Origin: Acidobacteriota bacterium
GTDB taxonomy: Bacteria > Acidobacteriota > Vicinamibacteria > Vicinamibacterales > UBA2999
Direction of reading: 5' to 3'
Length of the DNA stretch: 36,311 nt
NCBI GenBank assembly: GCA_022842985.1
Contig: JALHON010000013.1
Span: 1-36,311 of the forward strand
Shown here: one piece after another, positions 7,503 to 19,760 of the stretch
How positions within the stretch are numbered: the first letter of the stretch is position 1
Layout: every line of letters begins with the position of its first letter
The notes under the pieces: generated by a model
What the model saw: only the letters and a program-made list of their open reading frames with translations
Databases searched by the model: none
What the model was told of the DNA's origin: nothing
Program-made: the position numbers and the translations under genes

Positions 7503-7568
7503 GTGTGGAACCACACACCTTATGTGTGGCACCCTCCTTTGCGTCTCGTGCCGGCACGCGGCTATGCT
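7503..7568 (+). promoter_or_regulatory. Promoter with paired GTGTGG boxes, upstream of the response regulator
   Basis: GTGTGG occurs at 7503-7508 and again at 7524-7529 (21 bp apart). The first copy is half of a perfect inverted repeat, GTGTGGAACCACAC (7503-7516). A -10-like TATGCT is at 7563-7568, 60 bp from the first box and 39 from the second. The two-base loop makes an RNA hairpin terminator unlikely, so a protein-binding site is preferred. The same arrangement recurs at 11306 and 11987-12075. Confidence 0.6.
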
Positions 7569-7589
7569 GCGTCGACGGCTGCGGTGCAC

Positions 7590-8243
7590 ATGGCCTCACA
7601 GATCACGATCGTGCTGGCGGACGATCACCCCGTGGTCCGCAGCGGCCTGCGGCAGGCCATCGACCGCGACCCGGCGCTCACCGTCGTCGCGGAAGCCGAC
7701 GACGGCGAGGCGGCGCTCGCGCACCTGGTCAGGCTGCGCCCCGAGATTGCGGTGCTCGACATCGACATGCCGAAGCTCGATGGCTTCGCCGTGGCGCGCG
7801 CCGCGCAGCAGCAGTGCCCAGATACCCGACTGGTATTCCTGACCATCCACGGCAAAGCTGATCTGTTCCACGCGGCTATGGACCTCGGCGCGCGCGGCTA
7901 CGTGCTCAAGCAGAGCGCCCTGCCCGACATCGTGCGCGGTCTGAAGGCGGTGGCGGGCGGCGAGCACTTCGTGACCTCGTCGCTCACCTCGTTCCTGATC
8001 GACCGGCGGACCCGGGCAAAGGCGCTGGCCGAGCGCCTGCCCGAGCTGGGGGCGCTCACCGCGAACGAGCGGCGTATCGTGCAGCTCATCGCCGACGGCC
8101 GGTCGAGCAAGGAGATCGCCAGCGAGCTGTTCCTGCACTATCGCACGGTGGAGAACTACCGGACCGCGATCTGCCAGAAGCTCGGCATCAGCGGCGCCAA
8201 CGCCCTGCTGAAGTTCGCGCTCCAGCACCGCTCCGATCTGTGA
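7590..8243 (+). CDS. LuxR/NarL-family response regulator
   Basis: 217 aa. The receiver domain (1-120) has the acidic pair Asp11/Asp12, phospho-acceptor Asp57 (VLDIDMP), Thr85 and Lys107 (YVLKQS), all the residues needed for phosphorylation and switching. The C-terminal helix-turn-helix (about 150-210) has the LuxR/GerE pattern LTANERRIVQLIADGRSSKEI and the recognition helix HYRTVENYRTAI. It is a transcriptional regulator and presumably takes phosphate from the kinase encoded next, whose GTG start overlaps this stop codon. A GTG at 7584 could add two residues. The promoter region carries boxes shared with two downstream genes, suggesting autoregulation. Confidence 0.92.
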   Translation: MASQITIVLADDHPVVRSGLRQAIDRDPALTVVAEADDGEAALAHLVRLRPEIAVLDIDMPKLDGFAVARAAQQQCPDTRLVFLTIHGKADLFHAAMDLGARGYVLKQSALPDIVRGLKAVAGGEHFVTSSLTSFLIDRRTRAKALAERLPELGALTANERRIVQLIADGRSSKEIASELFLHYRTVENYRTAICQKLGISGANALLKFALQHRSDL

Positions 8244-11200
8244 ACCGGACTCAGCACCCGCCCCGCCCCCGTCGCTTCTCGCGTGCCTGCCAGGCGGGCC
8301 TCCTCGCGCTCGTGCTCGGCTGGCCGTGGCTCGCGGCGGCGCAGCAGGTCAGCCCGCGGAAGGTATTCGGCCATTTGCGGCAATGGACCTGGACGGAACA
8401 GCACGGCCTGCCGCCGAGCGCGGTCATCGCGGCGCTGCGCACACGGGACGGCTATGTGTGGTTGTCGACCGAAGCCGGCGTGGCGCGGTTCGACGGCGTG
8501 GAGTTCACGCGCGTCACCCAGGCTGGCGAGGCGGGCGGGCGATTGTCGGCCGCCACCGCCTTTCTCGAGGATCGGGCCGGCTCTCTGTGGATGGCCACCG
8601 ACGGGTCTGGCCTGGTTCGCTGGCGCGACGGAAGGTTCACGACGTACGGCACCGCCGACGGGCTGCCGAGCCTCAGGGTGTTGTCGCTCCTCGAAGACCG
8701 GCAGGGGGCGCTCTGGGTAGGCACCAGCGGCGGCCTTGCGCACCTGACCGAACAGCGCTTCACCGTCTACCGGTCCACCGACGGGCTTCCCTCGAACGAG
8801 ATCACCGCGGTGACGCAGGATCGCCGGGGCGACATCTGGGCAGGGACACGGTTCGGCCTGGCGCGCATCCGGGACGGCCAGGTGCACTCGTACGCGGAAC
8901 GTCACGGCCTGCCCGCCACCATCATCCACGCGCTCGTGCCGGGCGACGATGGCGAGCTCTGGCTCGGCACGAACGGTCAGGGCGTGCTGCGCTTCGCGGA
9001 GGACCGCGTCACGCCGTTCGGCGTGGCGCAGGGCCTTTCGCACGCGATGGTCCAGTCGATGATGCGCGATCGCGACGGCGCCATCTGGGTCGGTACGTAT
9101 GGCGGTGGCCTGTGCCGCCTGGCAGAGGCCCGATACCGCTGCGCCGGCACCCGGGACGGCCTGGCCGGCGATCGCGTATCGTCCATCACGCAACACGCCG
9201 ATGGCGACATCTGGCTGGGGACCGAGGGCGGCCTCGTCCAGCTCAAAGACCCACCGCTCCAGGTGCTCGGCACCGAAGACGGGCTGGCGCACGACTACGT
9301 CGGCGCGCTGCTCACCGACCGAACGGGCACCCTCTGGGTGGCCTCGGTCCTCGGATTGAACCGGTATCGCGACGGCCGCGTCACGATCTACACGACCCGG
9401 GATGGCCTGCCCTCCAACGCCATCCGCTCCATCGCCGAAGATCGCGCAGGGGCGATCTGGTTCGGCGGCGTCGAGGGGCTCGCCCGCTACGAGAACGGGC
9501 GGTTCTCGACGTTCACGGCCCCGCCGGGCTCGCCCGCCACGCGTGCCTACTCGATCCTCGAGGACCGATCCGGACGCCTGTGGCTGGGCGGCCACGGCGT
9601 GATTAGCGAGTTCAGGGATGGTGCCTTCAATTCGATGCCGCTACCAGGGCCGACACCCACGAGCGACGTGCTCGCGATGCACGAAGACGCCGAGGGCAGC
9701 CTGTGGCTGGGCACGCGCGGGGGCGGGCTTGTACGGTACCGCGACGGCGTCTTCACGCGCTGGACGACCGACGATGGGCTGTCGAGCGATCACATCGAGA
9801 TCATCCACGAAGACTCGTCCGGCAGCCTCTGGCTCGGCACGAGCACGGGACTGAACCGGTTACGGAATGGGCGGTTCGTGCAGTTTGCCGAAGCCACCGG
9901 GCTGAGCGGCGTCCCTGTGGTGTCGCTGGTGCCTGACGGGGTGGGCCATCTCTGGATCGGCACCGGCGCCGGCCTGTACCGGGCCGGCCTGGCACAGCTG
10001 AACGACGTCGCCGACGGCACACGTGCCGAGCTCACGGCGGCCGCATTCGGGCTGGCGGACGGGCTCCTCAGTCGCGACTTCTCCGGCGCTTCCCGCACGG
10101 GTGGACGGGCACCGGACGGACATCTTTGGTTCGCGACCACACGTGGTCTCGTGCGCGTGCGTCCAGAGCGCATTCGGCAGAGCCTCAGCCGGACGCTGAT
10201 CGAGCGGGTGACTGTGGACACCGCCGACGTCGATGCCGCCGGCCCGGTGCGCATCCGTGCCACGCAGAAGAACCTCGAGATCCGGTACGGGGCGCTCCAA
10301 TGGGAGCGGCCTGGCGCGGTGGCCTATCGCTACCGGATGCTCGGTCTCGACCGCGACTGGATCCTGGCGAAGGAGCGGCGCACTGCCTACTATCCGTACC
10401 TGCCGCCCGGCAGCTACACGTTCGAGGTGATGGCCGACAACGGTTACGGCGAGTGGCCGGATGCCGCTGTCCGCCTCGACATCACGGCGATTCCTGCGTT
10501 CTACCAGACATGGGCGTTCGCCCTGGCCACCGGCGCCGCGGGCATGGCCTTGCTCGGCTATGTGTGGCGGCGACGCGAGCGGACGGTGCGCCGGCAGCAG
10601 GCGCTGCAACACGGCTTCGCGCAGCGGCTCATCGGCTCCCAGGAAGCCGAACGCCAGCGCATCGCCTCCGAGCTGCACGACTCGCTGGGCCAGCGGCTCG
10701 TCGTGATCAACAATCTCGCGCTCCTGGCGATGGAACCGTCGGCGCCGCCGGAGGTGTCGCGCGAACAGTTGCGGCAGATCTCGCAACAGGCGGGCGACGC
10801 GCTCGACGAGGTGACCCAGATCTCGTACAACCTGCGGCCGTACCAACTCGACCGGATCGGACTGACCAAGGCCATCGAAGCCGTGATTCACAGTGCTTCG
10901 ATGGCATCGGGCGTGTCGATCTCGCCGGCACTCGACGACGTCGATGGATTGTTGTCGCGCGATGGCGAGATCAACCTTTACCGGATCCTGCAGGAATGCC
11001 TGAACAATGTCGTCAAACACGCTCAGGCGACCGCGGCCTCGGTGACGGTCAGCCGCGACGAGGCGCTGCTGCGTGTCACCGTGCAGGACAACGGCCGGGG
11101 GTTCGACTTGTCAACACTGCCGACCGGCAGCGGCAAAGGCGGGTTCGGGCTGATCGGCCTGCGAGAGCGCGCGACGCTCCTGGGCGGATCGCTCACGATC

Positions 11201-11257
11201 GAGTCGACCCCGGACCGCGGCACGCGCGTGCATGTCGACATTCCGCTGACGACCTGA
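8240..11257 (+). CDS. Membrane sensor histidine kinase with double seven-bladed periplasmic propeller
   Basis: 1005 aa from a GTG that overlaps the regulator stop. A signal peptide (LLALVLGWPWLAAAQQ) is followed by 14 tandem ~45-residue repeats of the Reg_prop type (cores such as DIWAGT, ELWLGT, DGLPSN), enough for two seven-bladed propellers. A Y_Y_Y-type Ig-like domain follows (about residues 670-750), then one transmembrane helix (about 755-778), a HisKA_3 dimerization domain with phospho-acceptor His813 (ELHDSLGQR), and a HATPase with N-box (ECLNNVVKHA), G1 (DNGRGF) and G2 (GFGLIGLRER). The kinase core is of the NarX/DesK class that pairs with LuxR-type regulators. The sensor half resembles the polysaccharide-sensing hybrid systems of Bacteroides, but here kinase and regulator are separate proteins. 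The ligand is unknown. Confidence 0.92.
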   Translation: MNRTQHPPRPRRFSRACQAGLLALVLGWPWLAAAQQVSPRKVFGHLRQWTWTEQHGLPPSAVIAALRTRDGYVWLSTEAGVARFDGVEFTRVTQAGEAGGRLSAATAFLEDRAGSLWMATDGSGLVRWRDGRFTTYGTADGLPSLRVLSLLEDRQGALWVGTSGGLAHLTEQRFTVYRSTDGLPSNEITAVTQDRRGDIWAGTRFGLARIRDGQVHSYAERHGLPATIIHALVPGDDGELWLGTNGQGVLRFAEDRVTPFGVAQGLSHAMVQSMMRDRDGAIWVGTYGGGLCRLAEARYRCAGTRDGLAGDRVSSITQHADGDIWLGTEGGLVQLKDPPLQVLGTEDGLAHDYVGALLTDRTGTLWVASVLGLNRYRDGRVTIYTTRDGLPSNAIRSIAEDRAGAIWFGGVEGLARYENGRFSTFTAPPGSPATRAYSILEDRSGRLWLGGHGVISEFRDGAFNSMPLPGPTPTSDVLAMHEDAEGSLWLGTRGGGLVRYRDGVFTRWTTDDGLSSDHIEIIHEDSSGSLWLGTSTGLNRLRNGRFVQFAEATGLSGVPVVSLVPDGVGHLWIGTGAGLYRAGLAQLNDVADGTRAELTAAAFGLADGLLSRDFSGASRTGGRAPDGHLWFATTRGLVRVRPERIRQSLSRTLIERVTVDTADVDAAGPVRIRATQKNLEIRYGALQWERPGAVAYRYRMLGLDRDWILAKERRTAYYPYLPPGSYTFEVMADNGYGEWPDAAVRLDITAIPAFYQTWAFALATGAAGMALLGYVWRRRERTVRRQQALQHGFAQRLIGSQEAERQRIASELHDSLGQRLVVINNLALLAMEPSAPPEVSREQLRQISQQAGDALDEVTQISYNLRPYQLDRIGLTKAIEAVIHSASMASGVSISPALDDVDGLLSRDGEINLYRILQECLNNVVKHAQATAASVTVSRDEALLRVTVQDNGRGFDLSTLPTGSGKGGFGLIGLRERATLLGGSLTIESTPDRGTRVHVDIPLTT

Positions 11258-11305
11258 GCCGGTTCGCGACAGGCGCCTGTCGGGCTCCCCGCTGCACATC
11301 CGAAA

Positions 11306-11371
11306 GTGTGGAACTACACCCCGACTTCGTGTGGCGGCGCTCTACCCGGTCGTCGCGGTCTTCATTACCGT
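11306..11371 (+). promoter_or_regulatory. Promoter with paired GTGTGG boxes, upstream of the 166-aa secreted protein
   Basis: GTGTGGAACTACAC at 11306-11319 differs at one base from the 7503 site. A second GTGTGG is at 11329-11334 (23 bp on). A TANNNT -10 (TACCGT, 11366-11371) is 60 bp from the first box and 37 from the second. The first box is 86 bp from the start codon, against 87 bp at the regulator gene. Confidence 0.6.
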
Positions 11372-11391
11372 TGGCCCGGAGGTTTCAGACG

Positions 11392-11892
11392 ATGAAGATG
11401 TTCCCCCCCGTTACGCTACTCCTGCTGCTCATGGGTCTCGCGCCATCGACCGCCCAGGCCCAGCAGACCCTGAACTACACGGCCTGCGTCGCCCAGCTGG
11501 ACCAGATGGTGGCGGAAGTCGAAGGCGCGGCACAGTCAGGCTTTTTCGGGCTGACCTTTACCCCGACCGTGCCCATTGACGCCATCCGGCCACCGCAGTT
11601 TCAGGCGCAGCAGGGCATTCTCGACTACCGCTATGAAACCGGGGTGACAGCCGGCCTCCTCCTCTCGGACGACGAAAGTCAATCTGAGATGGTCCCTCAG
11701 GTATGGGAGTTCGCCATCGTGCGATCCGGCGGCGCGTTCTCCTGCGCCTTTCGGCGGGGCTCCATCGTTGCGGGGGAGTGGACTACGGCCTACGAATACT
11801 CGCTGCCGTTGTCGTCGGTGTCTGAGATCAACCGCTGGCATGCGGCATACGTCCGCACGACCCGTCACCTCGAACGGCTGCTCGTCCCGTAA
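11392..11892 (+). CDS. Small secreted protein of unknown function
   Basis: 166 aa. I do not recognise the family. A typical signal peptide (VTLLLLLMGLAPSTAQAQ) precedes a mature protein of about 143 aa with two cysteines (TACVAQ near the start and FSCAFRR in the second half) that could pair in the periplasm. The rest looks like mixed alpha/beta: a helix-like DQMVAEVEGAAQ, strands around EFAIVRSGGAFSCAFRRGS, and a C-terminal helix EINRWHAAYVRTTRHLERLL. GGAGG lies 9 bases before the ATG. It directly follows the kinase gene but has its own promoter with the regulator-type boxes, so it is probably a target of that two-component system. It could be a ligand-binding accessory or effector; this is inference. 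Confidence 0.8.
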   Translation: MKMFPPVTLLLLLMGLAPSTAQAQQTLNYTACVAQLDQMVAEVEGAAQSGFFGLTFTPTVPIDAIRPPQFQAQQGILDYRYETGVTAGLLLSDDESQSEMVPQVWEFAIVRSGGAFSCAFRRGSIVAGEWTTAYEYSLPLSSVSEINRWHAAYVRTTRHLERLLVP

Positions 11893-11986
11893 GCCCCACC
11901 GACGCGGACGTCCGCGCGCCGGATGTTCTCCCGAATCTGCCGGCAGGCGCAGCCCGCTGCTCCGGCATCTCCGCGCATTCCGGCCC

Positions 11987-12075
11987 GTGTGGCACCGCAC
12001 GCCAGGTGGTGTGGCCGCCCGCGTCGAGAAAGTGTGGTCCTGCTGTGGTATCCGTCCGCTGCGCCGCGGTACGGT
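11987..12075 (+). promoter_or_regulatory. Promoter with three GTGTGG boxes, upstream of the PASTA-domain protein
   Basis: GTGTGG occurs at 11987, 12009 and 12032 (22 and 23 bp apart). A TANNNT -10 (TACGGT, 12070-12075) lies 61 bp from the middle box and 38 from the last, the same geometry as at 7503 and 11306. The last box shares its GAAAGTGTGG context with the 11306 site. No palindromic extension is seen here. Confidence 0.5.
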
Positions 12076-12107: not shown

Positions 12108-14222
12108 ATGCGACTGTCTATAGCCGGGGCGAGCGCCGCCCTGCTACTCACCCTTGTGACCGTTGGGCCCGTGTTCGGCCAGGGGCGGCCCGCGGTTCAG
12201 ATTGGGGTCTCACCGCAATCGGCAGTTGCGGCCACCCGTGCCGCTCTGAGCTTCGTGGTCACCGCTGTCGAATCGCAGGACGGTGTCGTGGAGATCGCTC
12301 TGCCGAACGGGTGGCAGGCGCCACCGCTGGCGACGGTGACCGTGAATCGTGGCACCTGCAACTCCGCCTCACTGACGACGGGTACCGCCGGTACGTTGCG
12401 AGCCGCGTTCAAGTGCAGCAAGGGCCGCACGTTCACAATCGGCTACAGCAGCGTCGTGCCGACGGCGGCCGCGACGTATCGGTTCGCAACCGCAGCCAGC
12501 GCCGGCCGCACGCTGGCGCCCGTGGCCAGCTCCCCGTCCTTCGATGTGATGGCAGGGCCGGCGGCGGATCTGCGGCTCGAGAGCCTGAGCGGAGTCATCG
12601 CCGGCACCGCGCAGACGACGACGGTGCGGGCCGTCGACCAGTACGGCAACACCGCTCCGACCTATCGCGGCACCGTGCGTTTCGCGTCGGGCGATCTGCA
12701 GGCGGATCTGCCCGGCCCCTACACGTTCTCGGCCGGCGACGCCGGACGACGGACATTTCCGGTGACGCTGAAGACGGCCGGCGCGCAGACCGTGACGGTG
12801 TCGGACCCCGACTCGCGGAACGTGTCCTTCGATTTCGAGGACGCGCAGTCGGCAGCTGTCACGCCGGCGCCGACCTCGCGCTTCGCCGTGTGGATCGCGC
12901 CGAGCATCGACGCGTTCCGCCTGATCACGACCTTCAACTGCAACTACCGGCCGGCGGACGCCTACGGCAATCTCACCACCGACTACGCGGGGGCCGTGAC
13001 CTGGTCGTCCTCGGACGCCGCCGCAGTGCTGCCGGTGAGTGGGCCCTACAACCCGTTGCAGCAACCGTTCTGCCAGATGCGGACGGCAGGCAGCCAGCAG
13101 GTGACGGTCACCGACCAGGCGAATCCCGAGATCCGCGGCAGCGCGACGACGATGGTGAACCCGCCGCCGGCGCGGGGGGATGCGGTCATCATCACCGACC
13201 CCACGCATTTCGGCGGCGTCACCGCGCACGCGCTCGATCCACTCGAGAATGACGGCTGGCCGAACTTCTCCGCTTCCCAGCTCCGCTTGGTGCGCGTGTC
13301 GCAAGCCACGTTCACCGACGAGAACGGCGTGACGCGCCAGCTCGGCCAGACCTACGTGAATGCGGGCGGCGGCAGCCTCACGCTGGATCTCTTCCCGCCC
13401 GCCGACCTCGATCCTGAGGTCGAGGGTATGCAGATCTGGCGCTGCTCGCCTGATGGCCAAGGCGGTGTCTGCCTGATCGGCGTCCCGATCAGCATCACCT
13501 ACGAGGCCACCGACTCCGTCAATCGAGTGAGCGCCACAGTGACCGTGACGCTCAACACCCCCGAGTTCTACCTGTTCCCATTCAACGCCATTGCGCCGGC
13601 GCCGGTCTATCCGCTCATCGGTCCCGGTGGCGCGTACGTCGAGGGCGGAAACGTGTTCTTCCCGATCGACATCACGACGACTCTTTCGAATCGTCGTGAT
13701 AACCCGAGCGGCACCGTCACTTTCAGGCTCACGACACCGGGGCCCTGCGCGGCCGATCGGACGCGCACCTGCACGATATCGGGCGACATGGAGCTGATCC
13801 TTCCCCCACTCCCAGGCAACTTCAACCCCGTCGGCCTGAGCACGAATCTCAGCGGCGCCATCGAGTCTCCGCTCAACAGGTTTGCCTCCGTGCGGTACAT
13901 GGGCCGGGTGAGCAGCGGCGACGTCACGCTCGACCCCATCGGCATCCTGGCAGGCGTGGCCAGCCTGACCGGCGTCACCAACGATGGTCGTGACGCTTTC
14001 CTGGGCGGCAGACCGAGTACGGTGCCCGACGTCCTGCGCAGGAGCGCCACGGAAGCCCGGGCACTCCTCCTGGCCGCCGGCTTGCAGCCGGTTGATCAAT
14101 GCCGGCCGAGCGCAACGTCCATTGTCACGAGCCAGAGCCCGGCGGCGCCAACGGCCGTCCCGATTCCGACCATTCCCTGGCCGTTTCCCGTCACGCTCGG
14201 CTACAGCAGCTGCCAGCCCTGA
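12108..14222 (+). CDS. Large secreted protein with Ig-like domains and a C-terminal PASTA-like domain
   Basis: 704 aa with a signal peptide (ALLLTLVTVGPVFGQG) and AGGAGG 6 bases before the ATG. Residues ~25-155 form a beta-rich domain with a Cys pair. Around 160-235 is an Ig-like repeat of the bacterial surface-protein type (RAVDQYGNTAPTYRGTVRFA, then TLKTAGAQTVTVSD). A second, diverged copy around 270-350 carries two extra cysteines. A long threonine/proline-rich beta region follows. The last ~75 residues read VPDVLRRSATEARALLLAAGL, then SQSPAAPTAVP and a final VTLGYSSC, the layout of a PASTA domain. PASTA domains usually sit on Ser/Thr kinases or penicillin-binding proteins and bind peptidoglycan fragments; here none is attached. 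Its promoter shares boxes with the nearby two-component operon. An adhesin or wall-binding role is inference. Confidence 0.8.
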   Translation: MRLSIAGASAALLLTLVTVGPVFGQGRPAVQIGVSPQSAVAATRAALSFVVTAVESQDGVVEIALPNGWQAPPLATVTVNRGTCNSASLTTGTAGTLRAAFKCSKGRTFTIGYSSVVPTAAATYRFATAASAGRTLAPVASSPSFDVMAGPAADLRLESLSGVIAGTAQTTTVRAVDQYGNTAPTYRGTVRFASGDLQADLPGPYTFSAGDAGRRTFPVTLKTAGAQTVTVSDPDSRNVSFDFEDAQSAAVTPAPTSRFAVWIAPSIDAFRLITTFNCNYRPADAYGNLTTDYAGAVTWSSSDAAAVLPVSGPYNPLQQPFCQMRTAGSQQVTVTDQANPEIRGSATTMVNPPPARGDAVIITDPTHFGGVTAHALDPLENDGWPNFSASQLRLVRVSQATFTDENGVTRQLGQTYVNAGGGSLTLDLFPPADLDPEVEGMQIWRCSPDGQGGVCLIGVPISITYEATDSVNRVSATVTVTLNTPEFYLFPFNAIAPAPVYPLIGPGGAYVEGGNVFFPIDITTTLSNRRDNPSGTVTFRLTTPGPCAADRTRTCTISGDMELILPPLPGNFNPVGLSTNLSGAIESPLNRFASVRYMGRVSSGDVTLDPIGILAGVASLTGVTNDGRDAFLGGRPSTVPDVLRRSATEARALLLAAGLQPVDQCRPSATSIVTSQSPAAPTAVPIPTIPWPFPVTLGYSSCQP

Positions 14223-18032: not shown

Positions 18033-19748
<1,716 letters not shown>

Positions 19749-19760
19749 CCTACGCTCCGG

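Follow-up and report, generated by a model that had tools for sequence, protein, structure and literature searches.

Paired GTGTGG elements point to a probable small autoregulated regulon of a two-component system in an Acidobacteriota genome

Positions 1 to 36,311 of contig JALHON010000013.1 (assembly GCA_022842985.1, an Acidobacteriota bacterium of the Vicinamibacterales), a stretch of 36,311 nucleotides called the window below, encode a two-component system made up of a LuxR/NarL-type response regulator and a sensor kinase. Paired GTGTGG boxes occur upstream of the putative regulator-kinase operon (P1), of a gene for a 166-amino-acid protein (P2) and of a gene for a PASTA protein (P3). We consider it likely that P1, P2 and P3 make up a small autoregulated regulon controlled by the adjacent system, which would activate its own operon together with two genes for exported proteins. 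The paired boxes are very probably docking sites of the regulator, because matching boxes at matching spacing adjoin relatives of this regulator in other Acidobacteria. The site is common to several promoters and is kept with the regulator in other genomes, P2 being weak. Computation revealed the sites, how they are arranged and conserved, and how they associate with the regulator clade and its recognition helix. A regulon of this kind had been proposed in an initial annotation made from the sequence alone, and it gained support when a model learned solely from other genomes recovered the window promoters, with P2 the weakest of them.

When the sequence was re-read, the boxes stood exactly where the initial annotation had placed them, at 7503 and 7524 in P1, 11306 and 11329 in P2, and 11987, 12009 and 12032 in P3, all on the forward strand. 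P1 consists of a distal inverted repeat, GTGTGGAACCACAC (7503–7516), a proximal GTGTGG box (7524–7529) and a putative −10 hexamer, TATGCT (7563–7568), which begins 60 and 39 base pairs (bp) from the starts of the two boxes, a spacing as in the foreign sites described below. P2 has the distal site GTGTGGAACTACAC (11306–11319), a proximal GTGTGG box (11329–11334) and a putative −10 hexamer, TACCGT (11366–11371), at 60 and 37 bp. P3 has three boxes: box 1 within the imperfect inverted repeat GTGTGGCACCGCAC (11987–12000), box 2 (GTGTGG, 12009–12014) and box 3 (GTGTGG, 12032–12037), with the putative −10 hexamer TACGGT (12070–12075) at 61 and 38 bp from boxes 2 and 3. The first box begins 87 bp before the start codon in P1 (7590) and 86 bp before that in P2 (11392), as had been claimed. 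The proposed sites and geometry were thus exact to the base, but GTGTGG was not the whole unit: the first box forms one arm of the inverted repeat GTGTGG-NN-CCACAC, both arms being perfect in P1, with a single arm base changed in P2 and in P3. The geometry proposed for P3 held for the boxes at 12009 and 12032, which fit the −10 hexamer, but the palindromic box at 11987 lies outside that pair.

The single hexamer was at chance level in the window, as the initial annotation had said (23 occurrences, 21.85 expected), and was rejected as a signal by itself. Its pairing, by contrast, stands out: a scan of the window genome (4.97 Mb in 469 contigs, 93.9% complete) for the paired pattern GTGTGGN{15,17}GTGTGG gave 11 pairs, 4 of them within the three promoters; the reversed-pattern control gave 4 genome-wide. 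TANNNT followed the second box at 37–39 bp in three of the four window pairs (those starting at 7503, 11306 and 12009, not that at 11987) and in none of the seven pairs elsewhere in the genome, where it was missing even within 30–45 bp. The pattern GTGTGGNNCYRCAC gave nine rows genome-wide, of which four fell in the three regions (three sites, one on both strands), and four in its control.

The full site reads GTGTGG-NN-CCACAC, then 7–9 bp, then GTGTRG-NNN-CCTCTAT, with TANNNT 38–39 bp past the second box in other genomes. Nine foreign sites, picked on the boxes alone without regard to TANNNT, could be aligned over the inverted repeat, a gap of 7 or 8 bp and, in most, GTGTRG-NNN-C..CTAT. The T, A and final T of TANNNT were invariant across the nine, and the hexamer lay 38 bp from the second box in eight and 39 bp in one. 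A candidate −10 element occurs at a fixed distance, namely 38–39 bp in 9/9 foreign sites and 37, 38 and 39 bp in the window; from the first box the distances were 59–61 bp in the foreign sites and 60, 60 and 61 bp in the window. The strongest columns among 41 model-aligned matches, an alignment fitted to the model and hence biased towards it, were TGT and ACA of the repeat, GTGT, CC, CTAT and TA...T.

Two sequence models were used, R1 built from the nine foreign sites only and R2 from the 41 foreign matches. When R1 was run on the window without filters, the top three matches were P1 (expectation value, E, 1.2e-5), P3 (3.6e-5) and P2 (0.0054), and the two weaker matches were the reverse strands of P1 and P3. 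The R1 alignment covered the proximal boxes of P1 and P2 and boxes 1 and 2 of P3; box 3 was identified from the sequence. Over the whole window genome, R1 under stricter filters found only P1 (0.0015) and P3 (0.0049) at E ≤ 1, and R2 found only P1 (0.0029) and P3 (0.085) at E ≤ 10. R2 had no match in genomes G006, G010, G011 and G034. P2 is the weakest of the three promoters and is too weak to stand alone. Near position 1538 of contig C132 of the window genome (G000; loci L166 and L006), a GTGTGG pair at 23 bp lies between open frames, ahead of an exported-looking protein. This candidate for a fourth promoter was rejected, as it had neither the palindrome nor TANNNT and was missed by both R1 and R2.

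Among the 43 genomes of the window's family, two others had a regulator match at E ≤ 1e-40 (41% and 37% identity), and no GTGTGG pair was found in the loci of these two matches. A scan of genome contigs gave 43 loci, eight of which were Acidobacteria orthologues at 50–57% identity; several of these orthologue loci contained GTGTGG-NN-CCACAC followed by GTGTRG in intergenic DNA near the regulator. A relaxed pair pattern gave ten matches in five of nine genomes and none in the control, the nine being the eight orthologue genomes and G102, which had been picked up blindly when 396 genomes of the phylum were scanned with the strict pattern. One of the ten (G426, contig C26) was missed by R1 and may be a chance match. 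The site in G102 precedes a gene read by eye as a propeller kinase, which is followed by a regulator orthologue. The initial annotation had expected the boxes to be conserved at orthologues, and they were kept with the same geometry in other Acidobacteria. This conservation held beside the regulator, but directly upstream of the regulator operon in some relatives only; the boxes more often preceded neighboring genes. No counterparts of the window's target genes were found in the relatives.

To relate the site to the regulator, we compared 56 genomes: 28 with a regulator relative (20 of the 396 and the eight orthologue genomes) and 28 controls without one at E ≤ 1e-55. The regulator search of the 396 genomes scored seven candidates per genome, and further regulators may exist. 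At E < 0.01, R1 matched 10 of 28 holders (5 of 23 when the five training genomes were left out) and 0 of 28 controls; at E ≤ 1 the counts were 12/28 and 6/28. Of the 28 holder genomes, 13 showed the recognition helix HYRTV(E/D)N(H/Y)R(T/V). At E ≤ 1, R1 matched 12 of the 13 genomes with this helix and none of the 15 with other helices (Fisher 4e-7), and 7 of 8 in the helix class when training genomes were omitted (Fisher 3e-5), but these values take no account of kinship and overstate the evidence, because the helix class was defined after the sites had been seen and, in a tree of 48 regulators, a single supported clade of 14 (99/92) takes in 13 of the 14 HY regulators. At E < 0.01 the helix class scored 10/13, or 5/8 without training genomes. 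The odd member of the clade, L022, has the helix HFRTVENHRS, and its genome, G423, had no R1 match; the HY regulator outside the clade, L161, has a weak site adjoining it (E 0.15 in its genome). The family of G102 was examined in 60 genomes. The same 3 of these contained both the regulator (at E ≤ 1e-60) and the site (by R2, at E ≤ 0.01), and the other 57 contained neither, a test that informs mainly through its 57 negatives because all three positives had supplied sites to R2 (by coordinates, G459 and G476 look like G425 and G428). G476 belongs to the window's phylum, and its sites coincide in position with those of G428, which holds the locus L027, named as Acidobacteria; this identifies the phylum as Acidobacteria. 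The LuxR-family regulator, already named as the obvious candidate in the initial annotation, is thus favored as the putative binder, in that the presence of the site tracks its recognition helix.

The foreign sites were found beside kinase-regulator genes and ahead of exported and receiver-only proteins; a simple script chose the open frames after the sites. At L079, L081, L083, L145, L150, L160 and L161, a receiver-only protein with a site in front lies near the regulator, two of the seven having been checked with Pfam. No receiver-only protein adjoins the regulator-kinase pair of the window. Exported-looking proteins of about 1,350–1,440 amino acids follow the site in five genomes (L078:4189-8298, L080:1062-5390, L081:6766-10995 and L151:4099-8139, and also L147 and L155); one pair was compared and showed 34% identity over its length, and two carry Big_3_5. 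At L157, the kinase gene follows a weak site match. Pfam analysis of 16 post-site proteins gave Big_3_5, DUF3300 and the receiver domain in two each, and patatin, RCC1/Big_2, SpoIIE, cupin and FUSC in one each; one protein had only a match below the cut-off, and four had none.

Regulator binding, phosphorylation, start sites and activation are what we infer from this arrangement. With the first base of TANNNT set at −12, the center of the repeat would fall near −65 and that of the second element near −43, a placement that suggests tandem dimers. The propeller sensor kinase (8240–11257) would phosphorylate the regulator (7590–8243), dimers of which would bind a tandem pair of sites spaced by about two turns of the DNA helix. 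One dimer would occupy the inverted repeat GTGTGG-NN-CCACAC, and the other the degenerate site, GTGTRG-NNN-CCTCTAT in relatives, which would abut the −35 region. The bound dimers might then recruit RNA polymerase to the TANNNT −10 element, so that the two-component system would raise expression of its own operon and of the two exported proteins.

Since the same geometry bears on the sign of regulation, we considered whether the boxes might be sites of this regulator acting as a repressor at some or all of P1–P3, which we regard as unlikely. Judged from its position at about −50 to −35, the proximal element could block the polymerase as well as recruit it, but in 9/9 foreign sites the boxes lie upstream of, and not over, the −10 and start region, and activator sites of this protein class are usually located upstream of that region. 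It is very unlikely that the boxes are real conserved promoter elements read by another DNA-binding protein, with the regulator merely linked to them. Shared ancestry could account for their occurring together in one clade; however, in distant genomes the DNA-binding protein next to the sites is this regulator, which shares the same 3 of 60 genomes with the site, and the presence of the site follows the helix even at L022, with its changed helix and no site, and at L161, outside the clade and with a weak site. Lastly, the chance frequency of GTGTGG in the window would suit a chance cluster of a common hexamer, and the boxes might also be part of an RNA leader, but we judge both extremely improbable: the conservation across genomes with fixed geometry argues against chance, which is contradicted for P1 and P3 by the independent model matches, though not for P2 alone, and no Rfam family matched at P1–P3.

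Several observations weigh against the activated regulon that we prefer. P2 was missed genome-wide by both models. In P3, R1 aligned boxes 1 and 2, whereas the distance of TACGGT suits boxes 2 and 3 (12009 and 12032), so that the palindromic pair, with box 1 at 11987, differs from the pair with the fitting −10 distance. Neither the 166-amino-acid protein nor the 704-amino-acid PASTA protein had a match in the other 42 genomes of the window's family, and no homology was found when each of the two was compared with one foreign target. The strict scan of the 396 genomes gave seven matches, three in the window genome and one each in G102, G263, G279 and G402, and the latter four were not above the reversed control (seven, by hand count). 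G185 has the helix with no site detected by R1 at E ≤ 1. The weak matches in 6 of the 28 controls had a best E of 0.0109, in G037. This genome, from the window's family and without a close regulator relative, carries an R1 palindrome on both strands at C104:5526-5552 (E 0.0109 and 0.14), which is either chance or the site of another regulator.

The regulator (217 amino acids, 7590–8243, forward strand, as are all four genes described here) matched Response_reg (1.4e-23) and then GerE (1.2e-12) in Pfam, an architecture of the NarL/FixJ type with a receiver and a GerE/LuxR helix-turn-helix domain, and its recognition helix reads HYRTVENYRT. The kinase (1005 amino acids, 8240–11257) has Reg_prop repeats, Y_Y_Y, HisKA_3 and HATPase_c in a single protein, all above the curated Pfam cut-offs. 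Because its GTG start overlaps the regulator stop, the two genes appear to form one operon. The propeller precedes the membrane-spanning part of the kinase, and this order suggests an external stimulus. In the relatives L022, L023, L024, L025 and L028 the kinase is encoded ahead of the regulator, the reverse of the order in the window. Besides the operon itself, the predicted targets are the 166-amino-acid orphan (11392–11892), which had no Pfam match, and the 704-amino-acid protein with a C-terminal PASTA domain (12108–14222); by reading, each has a signal-peptide-like start. The sole Rfam match in the window was a thiamine pyrophosphate (TPP) riboswitch at 19638–19752 on the reverse strand, at 55 bits (gathering score 54.3).

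NarL/LuxR-type regulons are well known as a kind. The sensor resembles the hybrid two-component systems of Bacteroides in having Reg_prop repeats and Y_Y_Y followed by the kinase core. The Bacteroides systems are single hybrid proteins with an AraC-type output, whereas here the HisKA_3 kinase and the LuxR-type regulator are two proteins. The present system is like the NarL and DevR/OsdR regulons in its receiver and GerE helix-turn-helix regulator with a HisKA_3 kinase, in its inverted-repeat sites upstream of the −10 element and in its probable autoregulation, but differs from them in the site (GTGTGG-NN-CCACAC plus GTGTRG-NNN-CCTCTAT), in its lineage-specific exported targets and in the propeller sensor. 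The DevR/OsdR regulon is the subject of PMC5069765. In the accessible parts of the literature searched, mostly open-access, there was no description of this regulon or site and no regulon of this kind for Acidobacteria.

We lean, if only slightly, towards an undescribed regulon extending across several families of Acidobacteria. A clade of propeller-kinase/LuxR-type systems whose recognition helix is HYRTVENHRT would read its tandem GTGTGG palindrome code and control the cell exterior. The targets would be the exported family of about 1,350–1,440 amino acids, DUF3300 proteins, receiver-only proteins and lineage-specific exported proteins; these would turn over while the regulator and site stay, and the helix would predict the site. 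Such a regulon would link one particular DNA code with one particular regulator clade in Acidobacteria and connect a propeller sensor, in a way open to testing, with exported proteins without known function, and the pairing of helix and site would allow targets to be predicted in further genomes.

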